Positions 24,104-59,517 of a DNA stretch of 64,000 bases are shown one piece after another. The first letter of the stretch is position 1. Each line of letters begins with the position of its first letter. The stretch is from Deltaproteobacteria bacterium (GTDB lineage Bacteria > Desulfobacterota > Desulfuromonadia > Desulfuromonadales > Geopsychrobacteraceae). Location: the NCBI GenBank assembly GCA_024279255.1, contig JAJRRT010000041.1, positions 1 through 64,000 on the forward strand, in the 5' to 3' direction. The notes under the pieces were generated by a model. That model saw nothing but the letters and a program-made list of their open reading frames with translations. It made no database searches and was not told the origin of the DNA. The position numbers and the translations under genes are program-made.

Positions 24104-24238
24104 AAGGATTTTCTGAGGTTAGAGCCGTTTTGTTAGATGCGCCGCACGATAAACTCCGGCATCCGGATTATTCCGGGGCCATTACCTTTGTTTGGGTTAT
24201 GGGACCGTTTCTATAAGGCAAAGATGAAGGATTTAAGG

Positions 24239-25318: not shown

Positions 25319-25322
25319 AACA

Positions 25323-42196: not shown

Positions 42197-42212
42197 TGGC
42201 TCAGGCCGTGCA
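42197..42212 (+). promoter_or_regulatory. Sigma-54 promoter of transport cassette 2 and the rdh block
   Basis: TGGCTCAGGCCGTGCA, GG-N10-GC. All genes from 42468 to 59319 are on the same strand with no other clear promoter, so this could drive a 17-kb unit. The leader to the first gene is about 255 nt. Confidence 0.82.
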
Positions 42213-42467
42213 ATTAGGATGGCTAGCGAAGATCAATATCATCATGATTTAGTCTGAGTATGCCTCTGCGTGGCGCTATGGAGGGTCGTATTTGTAGTGT
42301 ACTGGTAACTCGACGGCTATTTTTGAGGGTGACAAACGGCGGTATGAATAGGAGTGGCCTGCCTAAGTAATTAGATGATTCAGATGTCTAGATAAATTTG
42401 GCGGGCAAAGGGAGAAAGTGGGGTTTTGCCCAGTATGTTGGTTATATTTGTTGACGGAGGAAGCAGT

Positions 42468-44252
42468 ATGAGATGGAGAAGGAAGTTGAGTTGTCAATGT
42501 TTGGCTCTGTGTCTGGTCACAGTCGTGACAACAGCGGGTTTGTTTGCCCCAGTGTCGGTAAATGCTTTCCGTTTTGATTATGGAGATGTAACCGGTAGTG
42601 TGGATACCACCATTTCCTATGGTGCGACCTGGCGAGTCAATGACCGCGACAAGGGTTTATATCGTGGGCTCTATTTCGATAGTAGCGGCGCTCCTGTCGA
42701 CAAGGGCGGTAACATGGCATCGGTTAACCACGACAATGGTAACCTCAATTACGACAAGGGTTTGATCAGCAGTGTCGCCAAGGTCACCAGTGAGATGGAT
42801 GTCGCATATCGGGATCAATTCGGGTTTTTCGTTCGCGGGACTGGCTTCTATGATTGGGAGAACGAAGAGGGTACGCGCGCGAAAGAGCCGCTCAGTTCCG
42901 AAGCTCTCGAATTGGTCGGTAGCGATATCAAGCTGCTGGATGCTTTTGTCTGGGGGGAGGGCGATGTCGGCGATACAACAGTCCAGGTCCGGCTCGGTGA
43001 GCAGGTTATCAGTTGGGGCGAAAGCACTTTCCTGTTGGGTGGTATCAATGCGACCAATCCGATCAATATTGCGGCGATCCGTATACCCGGTGCGGAGCTG
43101 AAAGAAGCTTTGCTCCCCGAAGGGTTGTTGTGGGGTTCGGTCGGTGCGACCGAGAACCTGACCTTCGAGGGTTACTACCAATATGATTGGGACAGCTACA
43201 TTCTCGATCCTGCCGGTTCCTATTTTAGTGTCAGCGACTTTGTCGGCGACGGTGGTAATAGTCTGACCATCGGCAATGGCAATTTGCCTGAGAACTATCC
43301 ATCTCCTCCGGCACCTGCGGTCGGTTTCCCGATGCCCTACACCGTAAGCCGTGCTGCTGACAAAAATGCCAAGGACACCGGGCAGTTCGGTCTTGCCATG
43401 CGTCTCTTTGCTCCCGAACTGAATGATACCGAGTTCGGTTTGTACTACGTCAAGTACCACAGTCGTCTACCGACGATTAATGCTTATAAAGGAGCTGGCC
43501 CTTCGTTACCGCTTCTGGGACCTGGTATGCCGAGTATCAAGATTCCGGCAACAGCGCAGTATGCTATCGAATATCCGGAAGATATTCAGTTGATCGGTGT
43601 CAGTTTCGCAACCCAGTTGCCGGATTCCGGCGTCGCACTGCAGGGGGAGATTTCCCACAAGTTCGATACCCCGGTTCAGGTTGATGATGTAGAGATCCTT
43701 TCGGCTGCTCTTGGTTTGCCGTCTCAGTTGGGTCTGCCCGCTGATTTTGCTGACGGTGAGTATATTCAGGGTTATGTCGAACTTGACGTCACTCAAGCTC
43801 AGTTGACCGTGACCCAACTTTTCCCGCAGGTGCTCGGTGCCAATCTGGCCGTGGTGTTAGGCGAAGTCGGTGTTACCTATGTCCATGACATGCCGAGCCA
43901 GGATGAGTTGCGTCTCAAGGTTTTCGCAGAGCCGACCTTGACCGATGTCTCCAAGCCTTTTGTCGATGATGTTTCCTGGGGGTACCGGTTGCGGGCCATT
44001 CTCAATTATGAAGATGTATTCGGGCTGTTCAAGGTGTCGCCTCGTATCGCTTGGTCGCACGATGTTTCGGGCAATGCGCCGAATCCCGGCGGTAACTTCA
44101 TTGAGAAACGCAAAGCGTACACCGTCGGTGTCAATACTGCGTATCAGAGTTGGAATGTTGATCTCTCTTATACCGATTTCTTCGGTGCCGACCATTACAA
44201 CAACATTAACGACCGTGACCTCGTCTCGGCCGTTATCAAATATTCGTTCTAG
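42468..44252 (+). CDS. DUF1302-family outer-membrane protein, cassette 2
   Basis: About 594 residues with a signal peptide (LALCLVTVVTTAGLFAPVSVNA) and a barrel-type sequence ending VIKYSF. The mature start AFRFDYGDVTGSVDTTISYG closely parallels the cassette 1 protein (FRFSLLDDEVTGSLDTTMSYG). The start at 42468 has GGAGG 7 bp upstream. Likely the outer-membrane channel for the compound handled by the operon. Confidence 0.85.
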   Translation: MRWRRKLSCQCLALCLVTVVTTAGLFAPVSVNAFRFDYGDVTGSVDTTISYGATWRVNDRDKGLYRGLYFDSSGAPVDKGGNMASVNHDNGNLNYDKGLISSVAKVTSEMDVAYRDQFGFFVRGTGFYDWENEEGTRAKEPLSSEALELVGSDIKLLDAFVWGEGDVGDTTVQVRLGEQVISWGESTFLLGGINATNPINIAAIRIPGAELKEALLPEGLLWGSVGATENLTFEGYYQYDWDSYILDPAGSYFSVSDFVGDGGNSLTIGNGNLPENYPSPPAPAVGFPMPYTVSRAADKNAKDTGQFGLAMRLFAPELNDTEFGLYYVKYHSRLPTINAYKGAGPSLPLLGPGMPSIKIPATAQYAIEYPEDIQLIGVSFATQLPDSGVALQGEISHKFDTPVQVDDVEILSAALGLPSQLGLPADFADGEYIQGYVELDVTQAQLTVTQLFPQVLGANLAVVLGEVGVTYVHDMPSQDELRLKVFAEPTLTDVSKPFVDDVSWGYRLRAILNYEDVFGLFKVSPRIAWSHDVSGNAPNPGGNFIEKRKAYTVGVNTAYQSWNVDLSYTDFFGADHYNNINDRDLVSAVIKYSF

Positions 44253-44269
44253 AAAAGGAGAACAGGAAT

Positions 44270-45628
44270 ATGCGTCATAAATTACTTAAAGTTGTCTGTC
44301 TCTGCTTGCTGCTGTCAGGCATCGCTGTCAATGGTTGGGCACAGGCGACGGCTGAAGATGTGGCCAGACTGGGTAAGGATCTTACCCCTCTCGGAGCCGA
44401 GAAAACCGGCAATGCTGACGGCACCATTCCTGCGTGGGAAGGCGGAATCATCGCACCTCCGGCAGGTTACAATGTCGGTGACCGTCATTTGGACCCGTTT
44501 GATGCCGACAAGCTGACGGCTACGATCAACGCGGCCAATATGGAGCAGTATGCGGACAAGTTGACTGAAGGTAACAAGGCTATGCTGAAAGCCTATCCCT
44601 CCTTCAAAATGAATATCTATCCGACCCGGCGTAGTGCCGCGGCACCGCAGCGTATTTATGATGCAACAAAGAGAATCGCTGCCGAGGCCAAGGTGGTTGA
44701 CGGCGGGCAGGGGATCGAGAATTACGGCGAAGGGATTCCGTTTCCGCTTCCGAAGCAAGGGGTCGAAGTCGTTTGGAATCATCTCTCTCGCTGGCGCGGC
44801 AACAGCGTGATCAGAACCTTTATCGACGCGCCCATAACCCGTTCCGGCGATTATCAGCCGATTGTGATGCGTGAAGAGGTGGATTTTCTCTATAGCCATC
44901 CCGGGGCGAATGACGCGAATAACAGCCATCTCTGGAGCTTCAAACAGTCGGTTCTGTCTCCGGCCCGGATTGCCGGTATCGTTGTGCTTGCCAAGGAACC
45001 TCTGAATACGGTCAAGGAAAAGCGTAGTGCCTGGTCTTACAACCCAGGTCAGCGACGCGTTCGTCGTGCACCGAATCTGGCGTTCGATATGCCGCGAACC
45101 GGTTCCGATGGTTTATCAAGCAACGACCAGACCGATATGTTTAGCGGCAGCACAGAGCAGTACGATTGGAAACTGATCGGCAAAAAGGAACTTTACGTTC
45201 CGTATAATTCCTACAAGTTGCACAGCGGCTCGCTCAAATACAAGGATATCCTGACTCCGCTGCATATGAACCCGGATTATCTGCGTTACGAGCTGCATCG
45301 GGTGTGGGTTGTCGAAGCGACTCTGAAAGAGGGTATTCGCAATATTTACAAGCGGCGTACTTTGTATGTGGATGAGGATACTTGGCAGATTGTTGCGATC
45401 GATTCCTACGATGCCCGCGATCAGCTTTGGCGGTTTTCCGAGTCTCACAATATCAACTACTACGAGGTTCCTACTTTCATGCCAACGGCAGAGGTGCATT
45501 ATGACCTGCAGTCGGGGCGCTATATTGCTTCTTACCTGAGCAACGAATCTGTGCCGTTCAAGTACAATATAGACTTCAAGAAAAAGAATTTCACGCCGAG
45601 TGCGCTTCGACGTAGCGGACGGCGTTGA
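44270..45628 (+). CDS. DUF1329-family (LolB-like) periplasmic protein, cassette 2
   Basis: A 452-residue exported protein with signal peptide LLSGIAVNGWAQA. It shares LTPLGAEKTGNADGTIPAWEGG, QRRVRRAPNLAFD, YELHRVWVVEATLKEGIRN and the terminal FTPSALRRSGRR with the cassette 1 protein. AAGGAG precedes the ATG. Probable periplasmic carrier of a hydrophobic ligand. Confidence 0.86.
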   Translation: MRHKLLKVVCLCLLLSGIAVNGWAQATAEDVARLGKDLTPLGAEKTGNADGTIPAWEGGIIAPPAGYNVGDRHLDPFDADKLTATINAANMEQYADKLTEGNKAMLKAYPSFKMNIYPTRRSAAAPQRIYDATKRIAAEAKVVDGGQGIENYGEGIPFPLPKQGVEVVWNHLSRWRGNSVIRTFIDAPITRSGDYQPIVMREEVDFLYSHPGANDANNSHLWSFKQSVLSPARIAGIVVLAKEPLNTVKEKRSAWSYNPGQRRVRRAPNLAFDMPRTGSDGLSSNDQTDMFSGSTEQYDWKLIGKKELYVPYNSYKLHSGSLKYKDILTPLHMNPDYLRYELHRVWVVEATLKEGIRNIYKRRTLYVDEDTWQIVAIDSYDARDQLWRFSESHNINYYEVPTFMPTAEVHYDLQSGRYIASYLSNESVPFKYNIDFKKKNFTPSALRRSGRR

Positions 45629-45645
45629 TTTATCGTTTCATCTCG

Positions 45646-45671
45646 CCGGCCGGGCATTGTTGCCCGGCCGG
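45646..45671. terminator. Intercistronic hairpin after DUF1329 gene, cassette 2
   Basis: CCGGCCGGGCA (45646-45656) pairs perfectly with TGCCCGGCCGG (45661-45671); 4-nt loop; no T-run. It occupies the same gap as the hairpin at 23547 although the sequences differ. Confidence 0.7.
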
Positions 45672-45700
45672 TCAGTTATAAGTTTATCTCAGGAGTATCT

Positions 45701-46786
45701 ATGTTTCTCCCCCACAACACACAAACGGTTGTAACGAATTCAAGACGTTCTTGGATGGTTGCACTCGCAGCAATCTTGCTGTTGATAGGTTTTTCTATCG
45801 ATTCCATGGCAGCGCAAAAATCCTCAATTATCGCGCCGCTAGCCCAAAAGTCTCTATTGCTGGATGTCGCTTCTGCATCAGGTTTGCTCACCGCAGTCGG
45901 CGAAAGGGGGCACGTCCTGCTCTCCAATGATGATGGCAAAAACTGGGAACAGATCAAAGTTCCGACACGTACAATGTTGACAGGTGTTTATTTTCACGAC
46001 GGGAAACTGGGTTGGGCCGTTGGACATGAAGAGATTATCTTGCGAACAGACGATGCTGGACAGAATTGGCAGATGGTTAACAGCTATTCTGACGATCAAG
46101 ATTCCCCTTTGTTCGATATCTGGTTCAAGGATGCAAAGACCGGTTTTGCCGTCGGTGCATACGGTCGTTTCCTGGTTACCGAAGATGGTGGGCTCACTTG
46201 GACCAGCCGACTGTTCGAACCGATTGAAATTGTGTCAAACAATGACTCGGAAAACCACGACGAATCTGTCGATGATGAATATGAAGAAGATGAATATAAT
46301 GAAGATTACGGTACAGATGTTCATCTGAATCGATTGTCAAGATCTAAGAACGGCAAACTATATCTGGCCGCCGAGGCTGGAAGCCTGTTTCGTTCCGTTG
46401 ATGATGGCCGGAACTGGCTTTCCTTGAAGACACCTTATCGGGGCTCGTTTTATGGCACCTTGCCCCTGACTGACGATACCTTGCTGATTTTCGGCCTGCG
46501 CGGCCACATGTTTCGTTCAGAGGATGCCGGCAAAAGTTGGCAGGAAATTGAAACTGGGGGGCAGGCTACGCTGACCAGCGGGTGTCGCTTGAGCAACGGG
46601 GCCGTGGTTGTCGCAGGCCTTGGTGGAGCCGTGCTGGTTAGCACAGATAACGGCAAATCGTTTATGCGCAAAAATATCATTGGAAGACAGAGTGTCACTG
46701 CAATAGTTGAAAATACTGACAAGTCGTTGCTGATGACCGGGACTTTCGGCGTGAAGAAGGTCACATTGACTGAACTTGGCCTTTAG
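45701..46786 (+). CDS. YCF48-like beta-propeller protein, cassette 2
   Basis: A 361-residue exported propeller with repeats GERGHVLLSNDDGKNW, GHEEIILRTDDAGQNW, GAYGRFLVTEDGGLTW, AEAGSLFRSVDDGRNW and GLRGHMFRSEDAGKSW. Between the third and fourth it has a strongly acidic insertion of about 25 residues (ENHDESVDDEYEEDEYNED) missing from the cassette 1 paralogue. Likely a periplasmic partner of the RND protein. Confidence 0.85.
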   Translation: MFLPHNTQTVVTNSRRSWMVALAAILLLIGFSIDSMAAQKSSIIAPLAQKSLLLDVASASGLLTAVGERGHVLLSNDDGKNWEQIKVPTRTMLTGVYFHDGKLGWAVGHEEIILRTDDAGQNWQMVNSYSDDQDSPLFDIWFKDAKTGFAVGAYGRFLVTEDGGLTWTSRLFEPIEIVSNNDSENHDESVDDEYEEDEYNEDYGTDVHLNRLSRSKNGKLYLAAEAGSLFRSVDDGRNWLSLKTPYRGSFYGTLPLTDDTLLIFGLRGHMFRSEDAGKSWQEIETGGQATLTSGCRLSNGAVVVAGLGGAVLVSTDNGKSFMRKNIIGRQSVTAIVENTDKSLLMTGTFGVKKVTLTELGL

Positions 46787-46816
46787 GTCCGGATTCATCG
46801 TGAAGGATAACTTGAA

Positions 46817-49198
46817 ATGAATAAAATAATTACCCTGCTGGAAAATGCGATATTCGGGCACCGCCGCCTAGTTATCGGAATTTTCGTTGCCCTTGCAATA
46901 TTTATGGGCTATTCGGCAACGAATCTTCAGATAGATGCCGGTTTCGAAAAACTGCTGCCCCTTGAACACGAATATATGAAAACCTTTGTCAAGCATGGCA
47001 AAGAATTTGGCGGTGCTAATCGTGTTTTGATCGCTCTCAAGGCGAAAGAGGGCGATATCTATACTAAGGAGTTTTTCGAAACGCTTGGACAGGCGACAGA
47101 TGAAGTTTTTTTCATCCCGGGAGTCGATCGCAGTAAGGTTACCTCGCTTTTCACGCCCAATGTTCGTTTCACCGAAGTTACCGAAGATGGTTTTGCTGGC
47201 GGCAAGGTTATTCCAGCAGATTTCCAACCAACTGCCGAGGGGCTTGCAATCGTCCGTAAGAACGTTCTGAAATCGAATGTGATCGGTCGGTTGGTCGCTA
47301 ATGATTTTTCGGCCGCTATCATCAGTGCCGAGTTGATGGAGATTAACCCGGATACTGGCGAGCGCCTGAATTATCTCGAAGTCGCAAAGCGCCTTGAAGA
47401 GGTCCGGAGCAAGTTCGCAAATGAACATGTGGATGTTCATATTATCGGTTTCGCCAAGTTTATCGGCGATATGACCGATGGTGCCAAGCGTGTCATGATG
47501 TTTTTCGCCATCGCGTTTTGTATCTCGGCATTCCTGGTGCGTTGGTATACCCAATCGACCAGAAGCACAATCATCCTTCTGGTCTGTTCGGTCATGGCGG
47601 TGATTCTGCAGTTGGGTCTCTTGCCTCTGCTTGGCTACGGGATAGATCCGATGTCGATTCTGGTCCCATTTCTGGTCTTTGCCATAGCAATCAGTCATGG
47701 GGTGCAGATGGTCGGTACGATCCGCTCTGAAGTTTTTCTGGGATCGGACAACGTAACCGCCGCACGCAGAAGTTTCCGGCGTTTGCTGATTCCGGGCGGT
47801 ATTGCTCTTGCCAGCGACACCATCGGTTTTATTACCATTCTGTTGATCAAAATTCAGATTATCCAGGAGATGGCAATTACTGCCAGCCTTGGTGTGGCGA
47901 TGATTATTTTCGCCAATCTGATCCTGCTCCCGGTGCTGCTCTCTTATCTCAAATGCAGCGATTCATATAAAGAGAAGACCCGGCTTCGTGCCGCGCGGAT
48001 GAAGAAAGTATGGGACCGGGTAGGGCGGGTTGCCGAGCCCAAACCGGCGCTGGTTATTCTGTTGATTTCTGTGGTTCTGTTGTCCTTTGCCGCCTGGAAG
48101 GGCGCCGATATCAAGATCGGTGATTTGGAACGCGGGGTTCCAGAATTGCGGGCTGATTCCCGTTACAACGTTGATGGCAGGGTCATCTCCGATCATTTTT
48201 CGATCGGTGTCGATGTCATCTCTATCATCGCTGAAACCACCCCGGATGCGTGCATTGATTACAACATCATGAGCGAAATCGACGATTTCGCTTGGAGTAT
48301 GACCAATGTTCCGGGAGTTCAGTCGGTGACAAACCTGTCTGGCGCCGCCAAGGTTGTCAACTCTGGATGGAATGAGGGTAGCCTCAGTTGGCGAATGCTT
48401 CCTCGGAATCAGATCTCGCTGGTTCAGGCAACGCGTTTAATCCCCTCCAGCAGTGGTTTGCTAAATAAGGATTGCAGTGTCATGCCGCTGCTGGTCTTTA
48501 CCGAGGACCATAAATCCGAAACGATTACCGGTATCGTCTCTGCAGTTAAAAAATACCGTTTGGACAACCCGTCAGAGCTCGTCAAGTTCCAGCTGGCAAC
48601 CGGTAATGTCGGTGTCATGGCGGCTACCAACGAAGAGGTTGATGCGGCTCAATTCCCGATTCTTATCTATGTTTTTGCCGCAATCATCATTCTTTGTTAC
48701 ATGAGCTTCCGCTCAGTTAGAGGGGTGTTGTGTATTGTTATTCCGCTCGGCATGGTTTCCATATTCGGCTACGCCCTGATGACAATGAACAATATCGGTC
48801 TCAAGGTTTCCACTCTCCCGGTTGTTGCTCTCGGTGTTGGTGTCGGTGTTGATTATGGTATCTATATCTTCAGTCGTTTCAAGACCTTCATGGATGAAGG
48901 GCACGATCTGCAACAGGCCTATCATCTTACGCTGGAGACCACCGGAAATGCAGTTGTCTTTACCGGAGTCACCTTGGCGATCGGTGTTGCCACCTGGATA
49001 TTCTCGCCATTGCAGTTTCAGGCCGACATGGGGATTCTGCTGACCTTCATGTTCCTGGTGAATATGCTCGGAGCCATTCTGGTTCTGCCAGCGCTGGCGT
49101 GTTGGATGATGAGGGATAAACATAAATCATTAGAAACGGAGCCTGAGCTGTCCTCGATGGATGCTCCGATATTTTCAGAGAAAAAGGAGGTTTTATGA
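46817..49198 (+). CDS. MMPL/RND-family transporter, cassette 2
   Basis: A 793-residue RND protein with two halves. Conserved segments FLVFAIAISHGVQMVGTI and GVGVGVDYGIYIFSRFK match the cassette 1 paralogue, as does the C-terminal FSPLQFQADMGILLTFMF. It overlaps the sulfatase start by 4 bp, tying transport to desulfation. Confidence 0.9.
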   Translation: MNKIITLLENAIFGHRRLVIGIFVALAIFMGYSATNLQIDAGFEKLLPLEHEYMKTFVKHGKEFGGANRVLIALKAKEGDIYTKEFFETLGQATDEVFFIPGVDRSKVTSLFTPNVRFTEVTEDGFAGGKVIPADFQPTAEGLAIVRKNVLKSNVIGRLVANDFSAAIISAELMEINPDTGERLNYLEVAKRLEEVRSKFANEHVDVHIIGFAKFIGDMTDGAKRVMMFFAIAFCISAFLVRWYTQSTRSTIILLVCSVMAVILQLGLLPLLGYGIDPMSILVPFLVFAIAISHGVQMVGTIRSEVFLGSDNVTAARRSFRRLLIPGGIALASDTIGFITILLIKIQIIQEMAITASLGVAMIIFANLILLPVLLSYLKCSDSYKEKTRLRAARMKKVWDRVGRVAEPKPALVILLISVVLLSFAAWKGADIKIGDLERGVPELRADSRYNVDGRVISDHFSIGVDVISIIAETTPDACIDYNIMSEIDDFAWSMTNVPGVQSVTNLSGAAKVVNSGWNEGSLSWRMLPRNQISLVQATRLIPSSSGLLNKDCSVMPLLVFTEDHKSETITGIVSAVKKYRLDNPSELVKFQLATGNVGVMAATNEEVDAAQFPILIYVFAAIIILCYMSFRSVRGVLCIVIPLGMVSIFGYALMTMNNIGLKVSTLPVVALGVGVGVDYGIYIFSRFKTFMDEGHDLQQAYHLTLETTGNAVVFTGVTLAIGVATWIFSPLQFQADMGILLTFMFLVNMLGAILVLPALACWMMRDKHKSLETEPELSSMDAPIFSEKKEVL

Positions 49199-50859: not shown

Positions 50860-50924
50860 ATGATTGTTGAAAGGAGTGATTGTCTTTCATCGTGCTTAAA
50901 CAAAACTCACATTATGGTCTCGCA

Positions 50925-50961
50925 GCCTGCTCTCCGCTGCGTTACAGAGCGGAGGGCAGGC
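50925..50961. terminator. Hairpin between sulfatase and FAD oxidoreductase genes
   Basis: GCCTGCTCTCCGCT (50925-50938) pairs with AGCGGAGGGCAGGC (50948-50961) with one mismatch. No T-run, so partial termination or mRNA processing is possible. No sigma-54 promoter was found in the 217-bp gap. Confidence 0.6.
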
Positions 50962-51076
50962 AACATCAGTAACAACGTTGAGCCATAGAAAGACATTGGT
51001 TTGTACGGAAGATATCGGTGTCGCTCTGATATTTCTAAACAGGCTGCTTTGGGTATTTGTTAATGGAGATATTTAG

Positions 51077-52366
51077 ATGAAAACAGGAAAAAAGCCCCGC
51101 ATTTGTATTGTCGGCGCGGGCGCGTCAGGAATTGTTGCAGGAGATACCCTGCGCAAGCTCGGTTATGAAAATGTAACAATTCTTGAAAAAAATCCCGAGC
51201 GTGTCGGTGGTCACTGTTATGCCGTTACTGACGAAGGTTTTTCGATGGATCTGGGGGCGGTCACGGTCTTTCCACACTACCCACTGATAAATCAATACAT
51301 AAAAGAAACCGGCTGTCACCTGAAGGAGACTACGCCGCTATACTTCAAAAATATGGATGGCAGCACCCGACCGTTCAGAACGCCGCCAGAACCTTTGTCT
51401 TTTCTTGCTCAAAAACGGGAAGATCTGCGGCTCGGCTACCAGCTGTTTTTCAAATATCGTCAAGCGCTTTCCGTGCCACTGGGGAAAGTCAAACCATCGA
51501 TTATGCAGGACCTGTCGATTCCGGTTGCCGAGTGGATGGAACAGTCGGGGCTGAAATGTTACCACGGCGGAGATTTCCCGCTGATGCGTTCTTTCGGCTT
51601 TGGTTTCGAATGTCAGAATGTCCCGGCCATTTATTCTTTCCAGATCATGATGCTGATGGCACATGGTGGCAATCTGTTGACCCTGCTTGATCGCTCCAGG
51701 TTTTCTTTGGAACGGGTTGAAGAGGGCTACGGAGAGCTTTTCCGTCGCATTGCCAAGCCCTTGAATGTTGAGCTGGGCGTACAGATCGAAAGCGTGAAGC
51801 GCGACGGCGAAACCGTTGTTGTTAAATCGAACCAAGGCGAGCAGGAGTTCGACTATCTCATCTTGGCATGCGATCTGAAAGATTCCCTCGAATTTCTTGA
51901 TGTGACTCAAGATGAGCAAGAACTCTTCGCCGGGGTTTCTCATATTCCGGTCTGGCAGGCCCGTTTTCGGGTATCGGGGATTGATAAAAGCCTGATTGTG
52001 GAAAATCGCCAAAATTTTGAGAAGCTGGGTTACGGCATGGCATTTTTAAAATTCGATCCTGATCATGACTGGATCTACTATTTCGGTTACACCAGCGACG
52101 AGGTCGATGAGCAGGATCTTGTCAGGGAGATGAAGGCCGATATTGTTGAATTTGGTGGTGAGGTGCAAAGCGAGCCGGTGATGCAATGGTGGCCGAGATA
52201 TTACCCACATTACAACAGCCAGCAGGTCAAGGCCGGTTACCACGCCCGTCTGGAGGATTTGCAGGGACAAAGGAACACTTTCCTGACCGGTGCCGCTCTT
52301 GCGAACAACGGTGTTGAGTGGGTTGCTGTCCACGCCAAAAAACTGGTTGAACAGCATTTTGCCTAA
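51077..52366 (+). CDS. FAD-dependent oxidoreductase (amine oxidase/desaturase-like)
   Basis: A 429-residue flavoprotein with dinucleotide-binding IVGAGASGIVAGDTLRKLGY at the N-terminus, then ILEKNPERVGGHCYAV, the GG(H/R) doublet motif, and FLTGAALANNGVEW near the end. It is in the NAD(P)-binding amine-oxidase/protoporphyrinogen-oxidase-like group. With the next gene it forms a flavoprotein pair before the rdh genes. Reaction unknown; saturation, desaturation or isomerisation of a ring or polyene is usual for the fold. Confidence 0.83.
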   Translation: MKTGKKPRICIVGAGASGIVAGDTLRKLGYENVTILEKNPERVGGHCYAVTDEGFSMDLGAVTVFPHYPLINQYIKETGCHLKETTPLYFKNMDGSTRPFRTPPEPLSFLAQKREDLRLGYQLFFKYRQALSVPLGKVKPSIMQDLSIPVAEWMEQSGLKCYHGGDFPLMRSFGFGFECQNVPAIYSFQIMMLMAHGGNLLTLLDRSRFSLERVEEGYGELFRRIAKPLNVELGVQIESVKRDGETVVVKSNQGEQEFDYLILACDLKDSLEFLDVTQDEQELFAGVSHIPVWQARFRVSGIDKSLIVENRQNFEKLGYGMAFLKFDPDHDWIYYFGYTSDEVDEQDLVREMKADIVEFGGEVQSEPVMQWWPRYYPHYNSQQVKAGYHARLEDLQGQRNTFLTGAALANNGVEWVAVHAKKLVEQHFA

Positions 52367-52397
52367 TCGACGTAAACAGAGAAAACTGGAGAAATAG

Positions 52398-53921
52398 ATG
52401 GAAAAGTATGATGCCATAGTCATTGGTGCCGGTAACGGCGGTTTGGCAGGAGCTCTGACTTTTGCTAAGGCAGGCAAGAAGGTTCTGCTGCTGGAACGAC
52501 ACAATATCCCCGGCGGTTGTGCGACCAGTTTTGTCCGTGGACGTTTCGAGTTTGAAGTTTCCTTGCACCAACTGTGCAGTCTCGGCAGCGAAGAGCAGCC
52601 CGATGTCCTCAGACAGATGTTTGGTCAATTAGGCATTTTGGATAAATTGGAACTGGTCAAGCAGGAAGAGACTTATCGGATTTCCATTCCGGGAGAACTT
52701 GATGTCGTGCTTGAGCCGGGCAAGGAGGCGATTGTCGGCAAGCTTCAGGAACTCTACCCCGAGGAAGCGGATGGGATTCAGGGGTTTTTCGATCTGCTTT
52801 TTGACTTCGGCGATCAGATCCGTGAAAACATGCAGACCCTGGGACAGGGGCTGCATCCTGAGAAGCATCCTGCCATATTTAAGTACGCATTCAAAACTCT
52901 AGCCGAGGTAATGGACGAATTTCTCACTGGTGTAGCGCTTAAGACGGTCGTTTCGACTTACTGGATGTACTTTGCCCTTCCGCCCGCCCGGATGCCGTTT
53001 ATGGTCGGCGGTCTTGCTATGTATGAGTTTATGCGCGGCAACAACTACCACCTGAAAGGCGGTTCGCAATCTCTTTCCAATGCGATAGTTTCCGAATTCC
53101 TCGCCTGTGGCGGAGAGATTCGGTTCAATGCGGAAGTTGAAAAAATTCTGATCGCTAACAACCTTGTTCATGGTGTGGTAACCGCAGACGGCACCCGCTA
53201 CGTGACTAATTTTGTCCTCTCCAATGCCAGCATGATCGCAACCTATGTCGATCTGATGGATGAGAAGGATGTCCCTCCGGAGATTTTCAAAGAACTCAAA
53301 ATTTCCAAAGCGGGTGCTTCGATTTTCTCGACCTACATCGGCTTGAACTGTACCTATGAAGAAGCCGGAATCGAACATGCCACCAACTTTATGCAGGCCC
53401 ACCACGATTCCGATGCGCTGGAAGCGCTGTTCGATACCTTCGACGCACCTGAGGCTGCACTGCTGTCCTGTTACAATGTCGATGATCCCGACTTTTCCCC
53501 CGAAGGCACCTGTGCCATTTCATTGGCAACCTATCAGAACAGTGAACATTGGAACGCGCTACCGCCACATCAGTACCAGCAGGCCAAGTTCGATTACGCC
53601 GATAAACTGATCGAATTTGTCAGCCGGGAATTCCCGAAATTACGCGATCATATCGAAGAAATTGAAATTTCCAGCCCCTTAACCCACCTGCGCTATCTCG
53701 GTCACGAGCGGGGCAGTGTCTATGGTTTCGAGTGTTACGCAAAGGACTTCCTGTTTAATTCGTTCCGTATGCAGTCACCGGTGAACGGACTCTTCTTTGC
53801 CGGAGCCTGGACCTCAACCGGTGGTTTCTTTCCAACACTGATGATGGGTACAGTCACAGCACAGATGATGATGCAGGCCATGCAGGTCATGGCTGAGCAA
53901 GAGAATGAGGTAACAGTATGA
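52398..53921 (+). CDS. Phytoene desaturase/retinol saturase-like FAD oxidoreductase
   Basis: A 507-residue CrtI-like protein: VIGAGNGGLAGALTFAKAGK, LLERHNIPGGCATSF at the start, and GLFFAGAWTSTGGFFP with the C-terminal flavin motif. Relatives desaturate carotenoids or saturate retinol C=C bonds. A carotenoid role is unlikely because no crt genes are nearby. The last 4 bp overlap the following reductase, suggesting that the two proteins work as an electron-transfer pair. Confidence 0.85.
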   Translation: MEKYDAIVIGAGNGGLAGALTFAKAGKKVLLLERHNIPGGCATSFVRGRFEFEVSLHQLCSLGSEEQPDVLRQMFGQLGILDKLELVKQEETYRISIPGELDVVLEPGKEAIVGKLQELYPEEADGIQGFFDLLFDFGDQIRENMQTLGQGLHPEKHPAIFKYAFKTLAEVMDEFLTGVALKTVVSTYWMYFALPPARMPFMVGGLAMYEFMRGNNYHLKGGSQSLSNAIVSEFLACGGEIRFNAEVEKILIANNLVHGVVTADGTRYVTNFVLSNASMIATYVDLMDEKDVPPEIFKELKISKAGASIFSTYIGLNCTYEEAGIEHATNFMQAHHDSDALEALFDTFDAPEAALLSCYNVDDPDFSPEGTCAISLATYQNSEHWNALPPHQYQQAKFDYADKLIEFVSREFPKLRDHIEEIEISSPLTHLRYLGHERGSVYGFECYAKDFLFNSFRMQSPVNGLFFAGAWTSTGGFFPTLMMGTVTAQMMMQAMQVMAEQENEVTV

Positions 53922-55075
53922 GTGAACTATTACAGCACTTTGAAGGAGCTGGCCCAGTCTTGCAACAAGCCGAAGTCTTACGCGAATTCGGACGTGACCA
54001 TCGACTCGACCGTGGGGCCGTGCGCAAAACCATCGATAAGCTCCACCCACATCGAATCCACTATGTTGTGACAGAGATTATTGAGGTGACGACAACGACC
54101 AAAACTTTTCGGTTGGCATCCACGGATGCTTACCTGCCGCCTTTCATGGCCGGTCAGTACATCAATGTCTTTGTCGAGATCGAAGGGATAAGAACCAGCA
54201 GGCCTTACAGCCTTTCCTCGTCACCGCATCAGACCGCTTACTACGAGATTACAGTCCGACGGAACCCGGACGGTTTTGTCTCTGATTACATGCTGGATAG
54301 GGTCAAGGTTGGGGATCGACTGGAAAGCACCTCGCCGAGCGGCACCTTTTACTACAATCCGCTTATTCACGGCTCCGATCTGGTTTTTATTGCCGGCGGC
54401 TGCGGTATTACACCTTTTTTGAGCATGGTCCTCGACGTTGTGGAAAAAGGTGATGACAGCAAAACCATCAACCTGATCTACGGCTGCGCCGACCCTGAGG
54501 ATGTGGCCTTCCGGGCCGAGTTTGACCGGATTCAGGCGCTTCACCCGAACTTTCAGTGGCATCTGGTCGTATCGGAACCACCGACCGGTTATCAGGGCTA
54601 CACCGGATTTATTACCACTGATATTTTAAAAGCCGTGCTGGGTGATGATCTGTCCCACAAGAAGTTTTTCTTGTGTGGGCCGGAAGTCATGTACGCCTTT
54701 TGTAAACGAGAATTGCAGAAGGCTGGCGCTGAGCCTGGTGACATTCGCTCGGAAGTTCAAAGTTCCCCTGCCCAACCGACCGATCAGCCAGGTTGGCCGG
54801 AAGATGTGACGACTGACACGAGTTTTCAGGTGACGGTCGGTGATCAAAGTTTTCAGGCAAAGGCAACCGAGTCACTGATGGATTCTCTTGAGCGCAACGG
54901 GCTGGTTCTTCCCGCCCAATGCCGCTCCGGTGAGTGCAGCTTGTGTCGAACGCGGCTTCTGGTAGGTAAAGTTTACCAGTCTCCCTCCGTGAAATTAAGA
55001 AAGTCAGACATAGCGTATGGTTATATTCATCCCTGTGCCGCCTACCCGATTGATGATATCGAAATATCAATTTGA
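53918..55075 (+). CDS. Flavin/2Fe-2S reductase (phenol hydroxylase/CDO reductase type)
   Basis: A 385-residue modular reductase. After a short unique N-terminus it has the FAD motif RPYSLSS (about 89-95), the NAD-binding GGCGITPFLSM (about 162-172), CGPEVMY, and a C-terminal plant-type ferredoxin with CRSGECSLC plus the distant Cys in HPCAAYP. Such proteins pass NAD(P)H electrons one at a time to an oxidoreductase or membrane partner. Here the receivers may be the adjoining flavoproteins or RdhC/RdhA. Confidence 0.88.
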   Translation: MSELLQHFEGAGPVLQQAEVLREFGRDHRLDRGAVRKTIDKLHPHRIHYVVTEIIEVTTTTKTFRLASTDAYLPPFMAGQYINVFVEIEGIRTSRPYSLSSSPHQTAYYEITVRRNPDGFVSDYMLDRVKVGDRLESTSPSGTFYYNPLIHGSDLVFIAGGCGITPFLSMVLDVVEKGDDSKTINLIYGCADPEDVAFRAEFDRIQALHPNFQWHLVVSEPPTGYQGYTGFITTDILKAVLGDDLSHKKFFLCGPEVMYAFCKRELQKAGAEPGDIRSEVQSSPAQPTDQPGWPEDVTTDTSFQVTVGDQSFQAKATESLMDSLERNGLVLPAQCRSGECSLCRTRLLVGKVYQSPSVKLRKSDIAYGYIHPCAAYPIDDIEISI

Positions 55076-55134
55076 GATGATTGATGTTGCGAGTTTCTGC
55101 TTGCCGATATTTGTATAGTCGTTAACGGAACAAC

Positions 55135-56307
55135 ATGCGTTCACAAAAAAAAATAGAGCGAATTATCGGTGTTCTGGCATTTATGACGATTGTCGCTGCC
55201 TGGATAATTGGATCATCCAATAGTCATTTTGACCTTGAGTCTGTCCTTTCACGGGTCATGCCTCAAGCCGAACGGTTCGAAAAGCTTGATAGCCGTACCT
55301 ATGCTGTTTACCTGAGTAAGTCTCCTGATGCCCTGATCGGTTACGTGACGACTGGAGAAGCCAACGGATTCTCCGGCCCACTGAAGGTTGCGGTGGCTGT
55401 GGATCTTCAGGGCAAGATGCTTGCCTTGGATGTTGTCGATCATCGTGAAACTCCGGCGTGGTTCGAAAGAGTGAAGGCAAGTAGCTTCCTTGACAGCATG
55501 ATGGGGAAGAGTTACGCCGATCCTTTTCAAATAAATGAAGATATTGATGGGGTGACCGGGGCGACCTTCACCACCCGCGCCATTGCCGAATCGGTTCTTC
55601 AGGGCAGTAGGCGGATTGCAGCTGACCAACTTGGTTTCGAGACGCCGCCTATAACTGCTTCTGAAATAAACTTCGGTTTTCGTGAGAGCATCCTGATCCT
55701 GCTGTTTGTTCTTGTGTTTGTTGCCCACCGGCGTGGTTTTCGGTACACCCGGCAGCTTCGTCGGCTAAGTCTGACAGTGGGACTTGTCACCCTGGGATTT
55801 CTCTATAACAGCCCGCTTTCACTGGCATATATCAATAAGTTTCTACTTGGCTTCTGGCCGGAGTGGCAGACTCACCTCTACTGGTATCTGTTGATTGTCG
55901 GCATTCTGTGGGTCTTTATCGTCAGTAACAGGAATGCCTACTGTCATTGGTTTTGTCCCTTCGGTACTGTCCAGGAGTGCATCGGTGCGGTTGGTGGGAA
56001 GAAAATCATATCTGCGCGCCGATATCGTCGTCCACTTCAATGGCTGACACGTACTATTGTTTGGGGGGCTATTGTCCTTGCACTGCTGTTCAGAAGCCCT
56101 GGATTGACCAGCTACGAAGTGTTCGACAGCATGTTTACCGGCAAAGGCTCCAGTCTGCAGTTCATCCTTCTGGGAATTGTGTTGCTGTCTGCTCTGGTTC
56201 TCAGGATGCCCTGGTGTACCTACTTCTGTCCGATTACGCCGTTGATGGACTACCTTCGCATGGTTCGAAGCTGGGCCATGGAAATTTGGGAAACGAAACA
56301 GTCATGA
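55135..56307 (+). CDS. rdhC: RdhC-type FMN-binding polyferredoxin membrane protein
   Basis: A 390-residue membrane protein of the NosR/RdhC/PceC type. An N-terminal helix is followed by a periplasmic FMN-binding domain with the covalent-flavin motif DGVTGATFTT (about 138-147). Then come several helices and two CxxxCP motifs, CHWFCPFG and CTYFCPIT. PceC-like proteins are thought to carry electrons from quinol to the reductive dehalogenase. It overlaps the next small gene as ATGA. Confidence 0.88.
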   Translation: MRSQKKIERIIGVLAFMTIVAAWIIGSSNSHFDLESVLSRVMPQAERFEKLDSRTYAVYLSKSPDALIGYVTTGEANGFSGPLKVAVAVDLQGKMLALDVVDHRETPAWFERVKASSFLDSMMGKSYADPFQINEDIDGVTGATFTTRAIAESVLQGSRRIAADQLGFETPPITASEINFGFRESILILLFVLVFVAHRRGFRYTRQLRRLSLTVGLVTLGFLYNSPLSLAYINKFLLGFWPEWQTHLYWYLLIVGILWVFIVSNRNAYCHWFCPFGTVQECIGAVGGKKIISARRYRRPLQWLTRTIVWGAIVLALLFRSPGLTSYEVFDSMFTGKGSSLQFILLGIVLLSALVLRMPWCTYFCPITPLMDYLRMVRSWAMEIWETKQS

Positions 56308-56417
56308 ACAAAAGTGAAATCGGCATTCTGATATTCGCTTTGATCTGTCAGTTGTTGATCCTGACGGAGATTATGGCAAATGTTGCGACTGAGCTTCAAC
56401 GGCTCTGGTGGGGCTAA
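56304..56417 (+). CDS. 37-residue single-helix membrane protein
   Basis: Starts at the ATGA overlap with rdhC and encodes MNKSEIGILIFALICQLL followed by a charged and aromatic end (ELQRLWWG). One transmembrane helix of about 20 residues is evident. No homologue is recognised. Its overlap with rdhC and place before rdhA suggest a small subunit of the membrane complex. Confidence 0.65.
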   Translation: MNKSEIGILIFALICQLLILTEIMANVATELQRLWWG

Positions 56418-56516
56418 GAAGCTGATAACTGACCTGCATAACGTAATCTCCTTGTAGCCCGGTTTCGCTCTGCCGCGAAGATATCTTCTTGGAACGATCA
56501 AACTGAGGAACTTAAT

Positions 56517-57905
56517 ATGAAAAATAAAGATAATACGAATGATAAAAAAAATGTCGGAGGGGTTGACCGGCGTGATTTTCTGAAACTGTCTTCACTCACC
56601 GGGGCCTCCGCTCTTCTTGCCGGCGCCGGCGTTCTTGCCGCTCCAGGAGTGGCGAAAGCAGATGTCGGCGGAGTGAGTAAAAAAACCTTCTCCCTGTTTC
56701 GCAAGGAACACGCATCTATCGACGACGTTCATGAGATTGCCGCGGACTATAAGCGGATGGATCAGAAGAATACGATCTTTAGTCGGGGAGTCTGGAGCCC
56801 GCCGATCGGTGAGCCGGAAGGGTTGCTCAAAAGTTTTCACGCTAAATGGCTGGGATTGGTTCCAAACCCGATGGATGGTGAGCCCGGATTTTCCCCGGAA
56901 GCTCATGCATTGATGGTTGCTTCCTGGGCCAGCGAGTCGACCGGTGCGCCGCTGAGCGGCGGCGGGGTGAGAAACCGGGGGCCGTTCAATAACTGGGAGC
57001 TTCATGCCAACCCGACTGCTCCTGAGCGCCATGAATTCACGAGCAAGTCTGAAGCAGCACAGATTGTCAAGCGGGCCTCCCGGTTCTTGGGCGCCGATCT
57101 GGTTGGGATCGCTCCCTTTGATGAGCGTTGGGTCTATGAAAAATGGTTCGATTTTAAGGATGTTATTGAAGGTAAGGCCAAAGAACCTCTCCATGAGGAT
57201 GCGATTTTCCCCTTCAAGCCCAAGTCGGTGATCTCTTTGGCTTTTGAAATGGATTACGATGCGACAATGACGCCCGGCTATGTGATGGACGCCGCCGCCG
57301 GGCGCGAATATTCGCATATGGCGGAAGCAGGTCATAAAATCGCCACCTTCCTTAATCATCTCGGTTACCGGGCGATTCCCTGCGGCAACGATACTGCGCT
57401 GAGTATTCCGATTGCCATTCAGGCGGGATTGGGTGAACTGAGCCGTATGGGGACACTTATCTCGGAGAAGTACGGTTCCCGGGTCCGCCTCGCTAAAATT
57501 TATACCGATCTGGAGATGGATTTTGACAAGCCGATCACGTTCGGCGTGTGGCAATTCTGTAAAAAATGCAAGAAATGCGCAGATGCCTGTCCCGGCCAGG
57601 CGATCAGCCTTGATGATGAACCGAGTATGGAGCCTAAGACTGGTTCTATCTCAAGTCATCCCGGAGTTCGTAAGTGGTATCACCACAACGAGAAGTGCTT
57701 CGGTGTATGGGAGAAAAACGGCGCGACCTGCGGTGTTTGCCTGGCGGTCTGTCCTTATAACAAATTGGACACCTGGGTTCATGCTGTGGCCAAACTTGCC
57801 GTCGGGGTACCGGTGGGTCGGGATTTCGCTCGGCAGATGGATGATGCTTTTGGTTATGGCGAAATAAAACCGCAAAACGTTGAAGATTTCTGGGCAAAAG
57901 AATAA
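56517..57905 (+). CDS. rdhA: Respiratory reductive dehalogenase catalytic subunit
   Basis: A 462-residue RdhA. A twin-arginine signal (DRRDFLKLSS, residues 17-26, then a hydrophobic core) sends it to the periplasm. Near residue 348 is the first cluster motif CKKCKKCADACPG, and near 390-412 the second, CFGVWEKNGATCGVCLAVCPYNK in family spacing, giving two [4Fe-4S] clusters beside a corrinoid. The RdhA/QueG fold is shared with epoxyqueuosine reductase, but the Tat signal, RdhC and RdhB neighbours identify the respiratory type. The substrate halide cannot be deduced. Confidence 0.9.
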   Translation: MKNKDNTNDKKNVGGVDRRDFLKLSSLTGASALLAGAGVLAAPGVAKADVGGVSKKTFSLFRKEHASIDDVHEIAADYKRMDQKNTIFSRGVWSPPIGEPEGLLKSFHAKWLGLVPNPMDGEPGFSPEAHALMVASWASESTGAPLSGGGVRNRGPFNNWELHANPTAPERHEFTSKSEAAQIVKRASRFLGADLVGIAPFDERWVYEKWFDFKDVIEGKAKEPLHEDAIFPFKPKSVISLAFEMDYDATMTPGYVMDAAAGREYSHMAEAGHKIATFLNHLGYRAIPCGNDTALSIPIAIQAGLGELSRMGTLISEKYGSRVRLAKIYTDLEMDFDKPITFGVWQFCKKCKKCADACPGQAISLDDEPSMEPKTGSISSHPGVRKWYHHNEKCFGVWEKNGATCGVCLAVCPYNKLDTWVHAVAKLAVGVPVGRDFARQMDDAFGYGEIKPQNVEDFWAKE

Positions 57906-57915
57906 GGAGCGGTTT

Positions 57916-59319
57916 ATGAATGTCATGAGTATTTTTTTCTATATTCTGTTGGGCGGGCTGATGGCCCTGGCGGTCTTTTTTGCCTATAATTTTCACCGTA
58001 GAACCCTTTTGGATAAGCAATCCTGGGCCTATGCTGTTACCGCCATTCTGTTGGTAGCGTTCGGTCTGGCCTGGGCGTATTCAAGCATGTTGGAGGGGGA
58101 ACCGCGAGCGGCCGTCATGGGTGTTCTGATGTTCAGCGGCACGGGGGTGTTCTCAGGTTTCCTGAGTTGGTGGCGGACACATCCGTCGGTAACGAATAAT
58201 GAACAGCGGAGTGAACTGTCGCCCAGCAATCGGGCGACAGTGACACCTAGCAAGATTGCGGCCATTGTCTTGTTGGTTTTGTTTGTTTTGAGCCTGCCGG
58301 TCTCTCTGTTTGTGAAGAATATGGGGGATACCCTGTTCTCTTCAGAAAAAATAGGAGAACTGATCGTTGACAACGTCATTTCAAATATAGCAATACCGAA
58401 ATCGATCAAGAAGGCACTGGTGGCTCAGGTTAGACATGGTGCTGAGGGTTTCACGCTGGAACAGCGACTACTGCTCAGTATGACAGGGAGCGTGGATGAG
58501 CGCGAATGGATTGCACTTCTTGACCTGGTCATGCCGGAAAAGGAGCGTGTCTCCCTGACACAGCAGGCTACAGGTGCTGTCTTTACTTGGCTGGACAGTG
58601 AACAGACCTATCCGGAACTCGTGATCCCGACGGGTGAATATGCTGCCGCATTTGAATCTCATGCAGAAGAAGTTATCCCCTGGATTTATGATTCAATGCT
58701 TTTCCCGGGTTGTTCTGCAGAGCAGGAGGCACGCTACGCGCGTGGGGACTTTGGCGATGACCTGAAGGTTTTGATTGGCTGCCGACCTGCTGCTGAATCG
58801 CGCGCGCAGTTGATCCCGCGTGCGGCAGAGCTTCTCAGAAAAGAGCTCCAGGTACAGGAGATTCCCCAAACCGTAAGTTTGTCCGAAGAATTGAGCCAGG
58901 CGCAACTGGCTCCGGAAAAGATGCGTCTGCAGAAGAAAAAAATCAATACACTGCGTACGATCACTTTTAATATCTGGTTATTACCGCTCCTGTTGTTGGC
59001 TGGTGCACTAGCTTGTGTGGTGCGCTCCAGAAATGACTTGGCTGCCTGGCTGAAATGGCCTTTGTTGTCAGCAGGTCTGTTCGGTGTGCTGCTGGTGAAA
59101 ACTCTCCTGTCACCAACAGGGTTTATGGCGCAAGCTTTGGGTGCTCCTCCTGCAGACATGCCGGCTGCTGCATTCGCCATAATTAAAAAGTTTCTGATGG
59201 CTCTGTTTCTCCAGGTGGGGGAAGCGTTGTTTACGCAAATGTCGGTAGTTATGGCGGTGGGTGCTGTGTTGCTGTTTTTGTCCTTGGCTGGCAAGAGGCG
59301 TTGGAAGGAAAACATCTGA
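57916..59319 (+). CDS. rdhB: RdhB-like anchor fused to a large extra membrane domain
   Basis: A 467-residue protein. The first 88 residues match RdhB/PceB anchors: three helices with LAWAYSSMLEGEPRAAVMG (51-69) as the conserved loop. Typical RdhB ends at 70-105 residues. Here another helix (about 115-135), a roughly 230-residue periplasmic-type region and two or three C-terminal helices follow. The start at 57916 follows GGAG, 10 bp after rdhA. No domain is recognised in the extension, so the function beyond anchoring RdhA is unknown. Confidence 0.8.
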   Translation: MNVMSIFFYILLGGLMALAVFFAYNFHRRTLLDKQSWAYAVTAILLVAFGLAWAYSSMLEGEPRAAVMGVLMFSGTGVFSGFLSWWRTHPSVTNNEQRSELSPSNRATVTPSKIAAIVLLVLFVLSLPVSLFVKNMGDTLFSSEKIGELIVDNVISNIAIPKSIKKALVAQVRHGAEGFTLEQRLLLSMTGSVDEREWIALLDLVMPEKERVSLTQQATGAVFTWLDSEQTYPELVIPTGEYAAAFESHAEEVIPWIYDSMLFPGCSAEQEARYARGDFGDDLKVLIGCRPAAESRAQLIPRAAELLRKELQVQEIPQTVSLSEELSQAQLAPEKMRLQKKKINTLRTITFNIWLLPLLLLAGALACVVRSRNDLAAWLKWPLLSAGLFGVLLVKTLLSPTGFMAQALGAPPADMPAAAFAIIKKFLMALFLQVGEALFTQMSVVMAVGAVLLFLSLAGKRRWKENI

Positions 59320-59369
59320 CGATCTTTGTTGCTAATCTAAGTCCTGGCGGAGTACTGAACAACACTGGT

Positions 59370-59430
59370 GACAGTCGGTGCCTGGAAATTTCAGGCAAAG
59401 GCAACCGTTGAGATGATCTTGAATCTGACT
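59370..59430 (+). repeat. Scar copied from the flavin/2Fe-2S reductase gene
   Basis: GAC-GTCGGTG (59370-59380) and a 19-base block at 59389-59407 match 54832-54842 and 54851-54869 in the reductase gene, at the same spacing. It is too short and decayed to code and may be what remains of a second copy. Confidence 0.55.
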
Positions 59431-59517
59431 ATCTGAACTAAACTACCCAGCACCAAGCTACGGGAATTGACCTTTTTCTGAATCAACTGTTGTGACATTC
59501 ATCTGGAGGTGTTGAAC

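Follow-up and report, generated by a model that had tools for sequence, protein, structure and literature searches.

Do the reductive dehalogenase (rdh) genes of a deltaproteobacterium of the family Geopsychrobacteraceae act on the same substrate as the genes for hydrophobic compounds that precede them, and of what kind are their products? The question is raised by a stretch of 64,000 nucleotides (nt), hereafter called the window, which represents the first 64 kb of the 183,710-base contig JAJRRT010000041.1, part of a 3.53-Mb draft genome that is 91% complete (assembly GCA_024279255.1). Between positions 42426 and 59316, eleven genes follow one another on the + strand in the order DUF1302-DUF1329-YCF48-MMPL-sulfatase and then FAD1-FAD2-FeSred-RdhC-RdhA-RdhB. 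Family profile matches confirmed the presence, strand and position of all the genes named in a preliminary description of the window. The strongest new fact is the fusion of RdhB to a large membrane domain, termed RdhX, together with the rdhA neighbourhood of the RdhX copies that we have seen.

RdhB is fused to a membrane domain encoded beside rdhA

The open reading frame (ORF) that follows rdhA, read from the ATG at 57916, encodes 467 amino acids (aa) and is not a small, stand-alone RdhB of about 90 aa. Its residues 1 to 88 (57916..58179, + strand) form an RdhB domain with an EGE motif, which in the AlphaFold2 model aligns with the PceB chain 8q4h_C at a Z score of 13.2 and a root-mean-square deviation (rmsd) of 2.1 over 88 residues, and which phmmer recognizes at E 0.0041. 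The membrane part of about 360 residues after this domain (58237..59316, + strand), for which we coined the name RdhX, comprises one helix, about 210 helical residues and C-terminal membrane helices, as judged from alignments of its members and from an AlphaFold2 model (predicted local distance difference test, pLDDT, 85.6; predicted template modelling score, pTM, 0.74); the model of the whole RdhB-RdhX protein has a mean pLDDT of 83.6. The preliminary description had named this gene rdhB; the RdhB domain is indeed present, but the fusion, which makes the protein other than an ordinary RdhB, had been missed.

No Pfam or NCBIfam family matched the window copy of RdhX, and comparison of 15 aligned members with the same two databases yielded scattered weak matches alone (best E 0.013 and 0.074). 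Foldseek returned no match at E 0.001, whether the query was the complete RdhB-RdhX model or its RdhX part by itself. The best structural alignment of RdhX was with the lipoprotein transacylase Lit (7b0p; Z 11.0, rmsd 3.9, 190 residues aligned), the level reached by chance for helical models being about 13-14; this resemblance lies within the noise for helical bundles, and a Lit-like nature is not claimed. A profile match to a cytochrome bd subunit (E 0.0078), spanning 54 hydrophobic residues, was also taken as chance.

At the loci of the four nearest RdhAs (L042 to L045; 52-57% identity), a fused RdhB-RdhX is encoded beside rdhA in every case. In three Flavobacteriaceae loci (L051, L054 and L057), RdhX is a separate protein of about 358 aa, and the gene order is rdhA1-rdhX-rdhA2-rdhB-rdhC. 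A profile search recovered RdhX in all five genomes previously known to hold it (5/5), in 3 of 198 genomes of a set around the L051 genome, that genome included, and in at least 2 of 395 genomes of the phylum (the present one and G351), the best five candidates per genome having been scored in the latter search. The six new copies (two in G351, two in G656, one in G655 and one in G661) all lie within 60 nt of rdhA, three of them, those of G655 and G656, coming from genomes chosen for holding another rdhA locus; the first G351 copy also lies 12 nt after a weakly RdhA-like gene (34 bits). The stand-alone RdhX proteins of G351 (L150, 9395-10549 and 14234-15403) carry a CxxCH c-type haem motif, absent from the other aligned copies. 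Judging by this motif, RdhX may be an electron carrier in the G351 lineage.

In a tree of 88 RdhAs, those of the clusters with the fused form make up a single clade of 10 rows from 8 clusters (ultrafast bootstrap 100; SH-aLRT 99; recovered in 200 of 200 bootstrap trees). Ten of 98 rows, with long branches and including G351's own RdhAs, had been left out of this tree, and a quicker tree of all 98 rows gave the identical ten-row clade (SH-aLRT 99). Named members of the clade are Bacteroidota and one Desulfobacteraceae metagenome-assembled genome, a membership which, on the sequences compared, points to horizontal transfer. Overall, we consider it likely that RdhX is a functional partner of the reductive dehalogenase (RDase).

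RdhA and its known relatives

RdhA (56517..57905, + strand) scored 241.8 bits with the RDase profile TIGR02486 (cut-off 160.35) and has the features of a corrinoid enzyme with two 4Fe-4S clusters, exported by the twin-arginine translocation (Tat) pathway. The Tat motif reads RRDFLK (pattern RRxFxK; TIGR01409, 19.3 vs a cut-off of 16.7), and both 4Fe-4S motifs are present, CxxCxxCxxxCP as CKKCKKCADACP and CxxCxxxCP as CGVCLAVCP. Among solved structures, those of tetrachloroethene dehalogenases come nearest (8q4h, 291.8 bits; 4uqu, 168 bits). With numbering matched by count, the catalytic residues Y337 and R396 of DhPceA align with Y265 and R324 of the window RdhA, and six of the nine named residues of the DhPceA menaquinone pocket are kept (K489, H495, A498, A511, D515 and Y520), the kept residues including K416, H422, D442 and Y447 in the numbering of the window RdhA; the roles of the DhPceA residues are those given in PMC10624902. 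A grouping with non-dehalogenating proteins, which according to the preliminary description would speak against organohalide respiration, was not observed, as RdhA falls among the RDases and scores far above QueG-like proteins. From its sequence features, RdhA is very probably a real respiratory RDase. A protein search of its own genome gave one match to the window RdhA, and one of three TIGR02486 matches there exceeds the cut-off; the genome also encodes CobS, a corrinoid assembly enzyme. Viral contigs scanned with the RdhA alignment contained no relative.

RdhC (55135..56307, + strand) is a membrane protein with FMN_bind and Fer4_5 matches, TGAT and two CxxxCP motifs. At another locus (L015, 2558-3714, genome G071), an RdhC-like protein encoded after a separate rdhB has an RdhB-like N-terminus fused to it, as seen by eye.

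Among characterized systems, PceA2B2 of Desulfitobacterium (8q4h), as presented in PMC10624902, shares with the window the RdhA sequence, the catalytic Tyr/Arg pair, the two thirds of the menaquinone pocket listed above, the three-helix RdhB fold and the EXE motif. Unlike PceA2B2, the window has an RdhB with a 360-aa RdhX, the order rdhC-rdhA-rdhB instead of pceABCT, and lipid and sulfatase genes upstream. The hybrid RdhB-RdhA proteins described in PMC6797604 are similar in that an RdhB-like helix set is likewise part of a larger protein; in these hybrids, however, as far as that source describes them, the helices are joined to an RdhA without Tat signal, whereas in the window a Tat-bearing RdhA is separate and RdhB is fused to another domain.

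The cassette, the sulfatase and the flavoprotein genes

The gene run is headed by a cassette made up of a DUF1302 outer-membrane protein (42426..44252, + strand; PF06980, 547.5 bits), a periplasmic LolA-like DUF1329 protein (44270..45628, + strand; PF07044, 489 bits), a YCF48/BNR-repeat protein (45701..46786, + strand; PF14870, 72.5 bits) and an HAE3-like MMPL/RND transporter (46817..49198, + strand; PF03176, 111.6 bits; TIGR00921, 160.4 bits, below the cut-off of 351.9). Four DUF1329 genes are present in the genome, and the cassettes to which they belong differ in their partners. A second DUF1302-DUF1329-YCF48-MMPL cassette within the window (20387-27731) is followed by nitrilase-family, CoA ligase, HpaB-type, short-chain dehydrogenase/reductase, alcohol dehydrogenase, FadB and thiolase genes, in a region reaching to 39264. 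The fourth, on the genome's contig C18 (L188, 2706-12699), is followed by the alpha subunit of a quinohemoprotein amine dehydrogenase, a radical-SAM protein and the gamma subunit. At seven other cassette loci (six in relatives and one on the genome's own contig C107), an acyl-CoA ligase adjoins the cassette in four, and in three of these four FadB-like plus thiolase genes follow; at none of the seven did the sulfatase, FAD or rdh genes give a match. Because the partners vary in this way, both in this genome and in relatives, the cassette is a hydrophobe module of general use, combined with a variety of pathways. MMPL matches at E 1e-30 were found in 16 of 28 other genomes of the family and 6 of 23 other genomes of the order, and copies with 63-67% identity occur in 20 of 59 related genomes. 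The AmeABCD system of Castellaniella defragrans has the same gene types (DUF1302, DUF1329, COG4447 and RND) and serves monoterpene metabolism, AmeB mattering for growth on monoterpenes and AmeD being called an efflux transporter, whereas the partners in the window are a sulfatase, a fatty-acid-isomerase-like protein and rdh genes (PMC6394551).

The cassette is followed by an exported sulfatase of the Cys type (49195..50859, + strand; PF00884, 132.1 bits; best PDB match the arylsulfatase 7aj0, 209.7 bits), whose C-x-P-x-R signature reads CTPTR within CTPTRAAALTGR and which belongs by its features to the type I (formylglycine) family. A radical-SAM match (82.5 bits) was rejected as its maturase, since it sits between the alpha and gamma genes of a quinohemoprotein amine dehydrogenase. 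Sulfatase genes and rdhA also occur together in marine sediment genomes of uncultured Desulfatiglans relatives, but in the available portion of that report (PMC6129605) neither a shared rdhA-sulfatase locus nor an rdhB is described, unlike the situation in the window.

Three genes lie between the sulfatase and rdhC. FAD1 (51077..52366, + strand) encodes a flavoprotein resembling polyunsaturated fatty-acid isomerase (PAI), the PDB 2b9w-2bac group matching residues 3-428 with 116 bits and the next best entry reaching 34.5 bits. One of these structures, 2BAB, is named as the P. acnes polyunsaturated fatty-acid isomerase in PMC6162330, and this FAD enzyme is represented by six crystal structures according to PMC2885616. 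The similarity of FAD1 to P. acnes PAI is full-length but distant, and FAD1 is a putative isomerase. FAD2 (52398..53921, + strand) is a flavoprotein of the CrtI/carotenoid-isomerase type (TIGR02730, 161.3 bits, far below the cut-off of 586.9; PDB 4dgk, 74.3 bits), for which tblastn against plasmids gave distant matches alone (24-34% identity, 5 records). FeSred (53918..55075, + strand) is an NAD(P)H-type FAD/2Fe-2S reductase (FAD_binding_6, NAD_binding_1 and Fer2) resembling dioxygenase reductases. Its use as a direct cytoplasmic donor to RdhA, as in fused catabolic enzymes, was considered and rejected because RdhA, with its Tat signal, should be on the opposite side of the membrane. In the vicinity, a FadB scores over its equivalog cut-off and thiolase and CoA ligase genes are found, while past the window end the contig carries genes for two acyl-CoA dehydrogenases, a metallo-beta-lactamase-fold protein, an iron-sulfur membrane protein with CCG domains and an electron-transfer flavoprotein subunit. 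The rdh genes are thus embedded among numerous genes for fatty-acid oxidation.

Layout and transcription of the gene run

From DUF1302 to RdhA the successive intergenic gaps measure 17, 72, 30, -4, 217, 31, -4, 59 and 209 nt, and rdhA and rdhB are 10 nt apart if rdhB starts at the ATG at 57916. At the two widest gaps (50859-51077 and 56307-56517), one operon could split into two or three. The first of them, between the sulfatase and FAD1, harbors a 14-bp hairpin without U-tract (50925..50961, + strand; -41.3 kcal/mol for the folded 96-nt stretch, z -6.3). This hairpin is no proof of termination, because a similar one, also devoid of a U-tract, sits inside the cassette (45643..45671, + strand, in the gap 45629-45700; z -5.7); both may serve in processing or stabilization, or as terminators of a different kind. 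Scanning for consensus promoters and terminators gave numbers near chance (23 promoter-like sites vs a mean of 17.2; 29 terminator-like sites vs a mean of 21.2). A sigma-54-dependent activator encoded 1,052 nt upstream of the cassette (39811..41373, + strand; Pfam Sigma54_activat, 247 bits) is a possible regulator, and no -24/-12 sigma-54 site with 8 of 11 matches was found near the operon when both strands were scanned. A single transcript across the whole gene run is possible. The G+C content at third codon positions (GC3) is even over the gene set (0.51-0.59).

Three further features adjoin the rdh genes. Between rdhC and rdhA lies an unproven 37-aa ORF with one predicted membrane helix (56304..56417, + strand), for which no relative was found at E 1e-5 among 79 rdhA loci. 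After rdhB there is a decayed remnant of a 2Fe-2S ferredoxin domain (59366..59431, + strand), 41 nt of which (59367-59407) are 80% identical to FeSred positions 54829-54869, the reading frame having been compared by eye; on this sequence evidence FeSred and the rdh genes seem to share a local history. Further on, a Fer4 protein (60337..61488, + strand) with a weak helix-turn-helix match (24.2 bits vs a cut-off of 27) has a homologue in the G351 rdh cluster (L150, 12716-14206; 122 bits) and a weak match near rdhA at L055 too. It is possibly an rdh-linked redox protein or regulator.

Do the rdh genes and the cassette serve one substrate?

That the rdh genes and the cassette serve one substrate is a reading to which we give slightly less than an even chance; that this shared substrate is a halogenated lipid is rather doubtful. 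The contigs of 84,980 species were scanned with the RdhA alignment, yielding 74 loci, to which five whole-genome loci were added (79 in total; records L164 and L167 duplicate L057 and L042, respectively, and none was counted twice). Flanks of at least 9 kb on both sides were available for 36 of them and of at least 5 kb for 44, with 43 of the 79 falling short of 9 kb on one or both sides; among the nearest loci, L042 has 2.9 kb upstream, L044 almost none, and L043 and L045 have 9-10 kb. A sulfatase gene was found at two of the 79 (L112 and L115). RdhA exceeded the TIGR02486 cut-off in at least 5 of 277 genomes of the class, the present one included, and in at least 46 of the 395 genomes sampled from the phylum, these counts being lower bounds, as the best seven and the best five candidates per genome, respectively, were scored.

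DUF1329 occurs in 13 of the 52 sampled phylum genomes with an RdhA match at E 1e-30, and lies within 15 kb of rdhA at four loci (the window, G351:C93, G351:C96 and G570:C372), where 1.13 are expected (P = 0.018), the 15-kb limit and the merging of rdhA hits into loci being choices of the analyst. G351, an unrelated genome of 8.9 Mb from the same phylum, carries four or more RdhA genes (loci L150 and L170) and 59 first-look DUF1329 candidates, 30 of which were scored and all matched. On one strand of G351:C93, genes for DUF1302 (56.8 bits), DUF1329 (119.4 bits), a phosphotriesterase-family protein, YCF48 and MMPL (84.1 bits) are followed by genes for an RdhA-like protein, RdhX, RdhA, a small RdhB-like ORF, Fer4, RdhX, RdhA and a second small RdhB-like ORF, both small ORFs being recognized by eye. 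At G351:C96, a sulfatase (190.5 bits), RdhA and DUF1329 (483.7 bits) are encoded within 8.3 kb, not all on the same strand, while at G570:C372 the cassette comes after two shorter RdhAs, with TRAP-type and other genes between them (by eye). The gene detail of G351:C93 is more telling for the link between cassette and rdh than the statistics.

Several findings weigh against a single pathway. Two other genomes of the phylum also have cassette and rdh genes near each other, in one case with RdhX (G351), but DUF1302, DUF1329, YCF48, MMPL, FAD1, FAD2 and FeSred are absent from all 79 rdhA loci, within the flanks given above, and the proximity of DUF1329 to rdhA drops to P = 0.084 without the window's own locus and to 0.42 without G351 as well, where such neighbours are expected by chance because of the 59 DUF1329 candidates. 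The statistics alone do not carry the claim, and the linkage is not general. In RdhA, three of the nine menaquinone-pocket residues are changed (S486 to P, W487 to Y and R499 to K), and the Pfam family Dehalogenase (PF13486) gave no match at E 0.001. RdhX is without known fold or function, and the nearest relatives of FAD2 in 59 related genomes are so distant (best 28% identity over residues 2-492) that the FAD part is not checkable by comparison. MMPL lacks a match at E 1e-30 in 7 of the 8 other genomes of the genus, and an anaerobic sulfatase maturase over cut-off was not found in the 91% complete genome, the formylglycine-generating enzyme not having been searched for. The 217-nt gap with its strong hairpin might divide two transcripts. 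Finally, Ame, the nearest studied cassette, is described as an efflux system in PMC6394551, and the window cassette may therefore transport in either direction; the hydrophobic-substrate uptake first proposed is partly supported, the cassette for hydrophobic compounds and the exported sulfatase being present.

The most serious alternative, plausible and a little below even in our estimate, is that a horizontally acquired rdh module, either FAD1-FAD2-FeSred-rdhCAB or rdhCAB alone, came to lie beside a pre-existing lipid cassette and sulfatase, with RdhA respiring a common marine organohalide, for instance a bromophenol, and the upstream genes serving some other purpose. The grouping of RdhA with Bacteroidota and one Desulfobacteraceae, its presence over cut-off in few genomes of the class, the lack of every upstream gene at L043 and L045, the two closest RdhA loci for which 9-10 kb of flank were available, and the 217- and 209-nt gaps, with the hairpin in the first, are all in its favor. 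Such an independent origin is less easily reconciled with the single strand and even GC3 of the whole gene set, with the renewed meeting of cassette, RdhX and rdh genes in G351, and with the FeSred-type ferredoxin remnant behind rdhB, by which a shared local history seems likely.

A reading in which the sulfatase and the FAD and FeSred genes act on a sulfated lipid or terpenoid without halogen, and the rdh genes occasionally detoxify or respire a halogenated analogue, is in our view improbable: the cassette does head ordinary fatty-acid-oxidation runs at three of the seven other loci, and the four DUF1329 cassettes of this genome do have different partners, but this does not account for the occurrence, in two genomes, of RdhX-type rdh genes next to a cassette of this kind. 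We regard it as very improbable that RdhA is a corrinoid protein without dehalogenating activity or a QueG-like one. Its weak QueG similarity (TIGR00276, 53.8 bits vs a cut-off of 200) and the missing PF13486 match might suggest this, but its TIGR02486 score, its catalytic residues and Tat signal, the RdhB and RdhC partners and its position in the tree speak against it.

A tentative mechanism and its substrate

Our preferred reading, one pathway for one substrate, is put forward tentatively, as not quite an even bet: the locus would encode a menaquinol:organohalide oxidoreductase module set within a lipid-catabolism region, one sulfated halogenated lipid being both electron acceptor and carbon source. 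The preliminary description had likewise proposed a sulfated, halogenated, hydrophobic compound; its examples, bromophenols and terpenoid esters, fit less well than a sulfated halogenated lipid because FAD1 is PAI-like and fatty-acid-oxidation genes surround the locus. By analogy with PceA2B2, menaquinol would be oxidized at the RdhA/RdhB interface and the electrons passed through the two clusters to the corrinoid, and RdhX might hold RdhA in place (two RdhAs in some clusters) or bring membrane-dissolved substrate to it. The remaining steps are less sure. The DUF1302/DUF1329/YCF48/MMPL cassette would handle the hydrophobic compound in the envelope, and the exported sulfatase, going by its neighbourhood, would cleave a sulfate ester. 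Periplasmic RdhA would then take off halogen, turning vicinal dihalides into an alkene. FeSred and the two flavoproteins, PAI-like FAD1 and CrtI-like FAD2, could then shift or reduce the double bond in the cytoplasm, and CoA ligase, FadB, thiolase and the acyl-CoA dehydrogenases could complete the breakdown of the chain, whereby one lipid would be electron acceptor and carbon source. An RDase acting on a vicinal dihalide leaves an alkene (dihaloelimination), and an alkene is a possible substrate for a PAI-like isomerase or a CrtI-like flavoprotein.

Chlorosulfolipids are polychlorinated fatty-chain sulfates known from mussels of the Adriatic and from water off the Californian coast. They come into consideration because a sulfate ester, many chlorines and a fatty chain are combined in one molecule. 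Chlorosulfolipids with up to 11 chlorines have been reported from the Eastern Pacific (PMC13413282). As a long shot, the locus could be the first for anaerobic chlorosulfolipid use: the sulfate would be cut, RdhA-RdhB-RdhX would remove vicinal or geminal chlorines at the expense of menaquinol, with RdhX presenting the lipid, the flavoproteins would deal with the double bonds, and beta-oxidation would follow. Within the library searched, no report linking a chlorosulfolipid and a dehalogenase in one pathway was found, one review mentioning the two apart, and searches combining rdh with steroid, RND and Desulfobacterota themes, and sulfatase with rdhA, gave no recognizable report of such an operon.

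To our knowledge, it is not known for most marine reductive dehalogenases which compounds they act on in nature. By linking an RDase with an exported sulfatase, a protein resembling fatty-acid isomerases and lipid transport, the locus points to a class of substrates that can be tested, and if the chlorosulfolipid reading were true, one molecule would be both respired and eaten. The RdhX family, whether fused or stand-alone, has been seen here solely beside rdhA, in Desulfobacterota and Bacteroidota; it may be a missing subunit in one branch of the respiratory RDases, and it can be used as a marker for finding more such dehalogenases.

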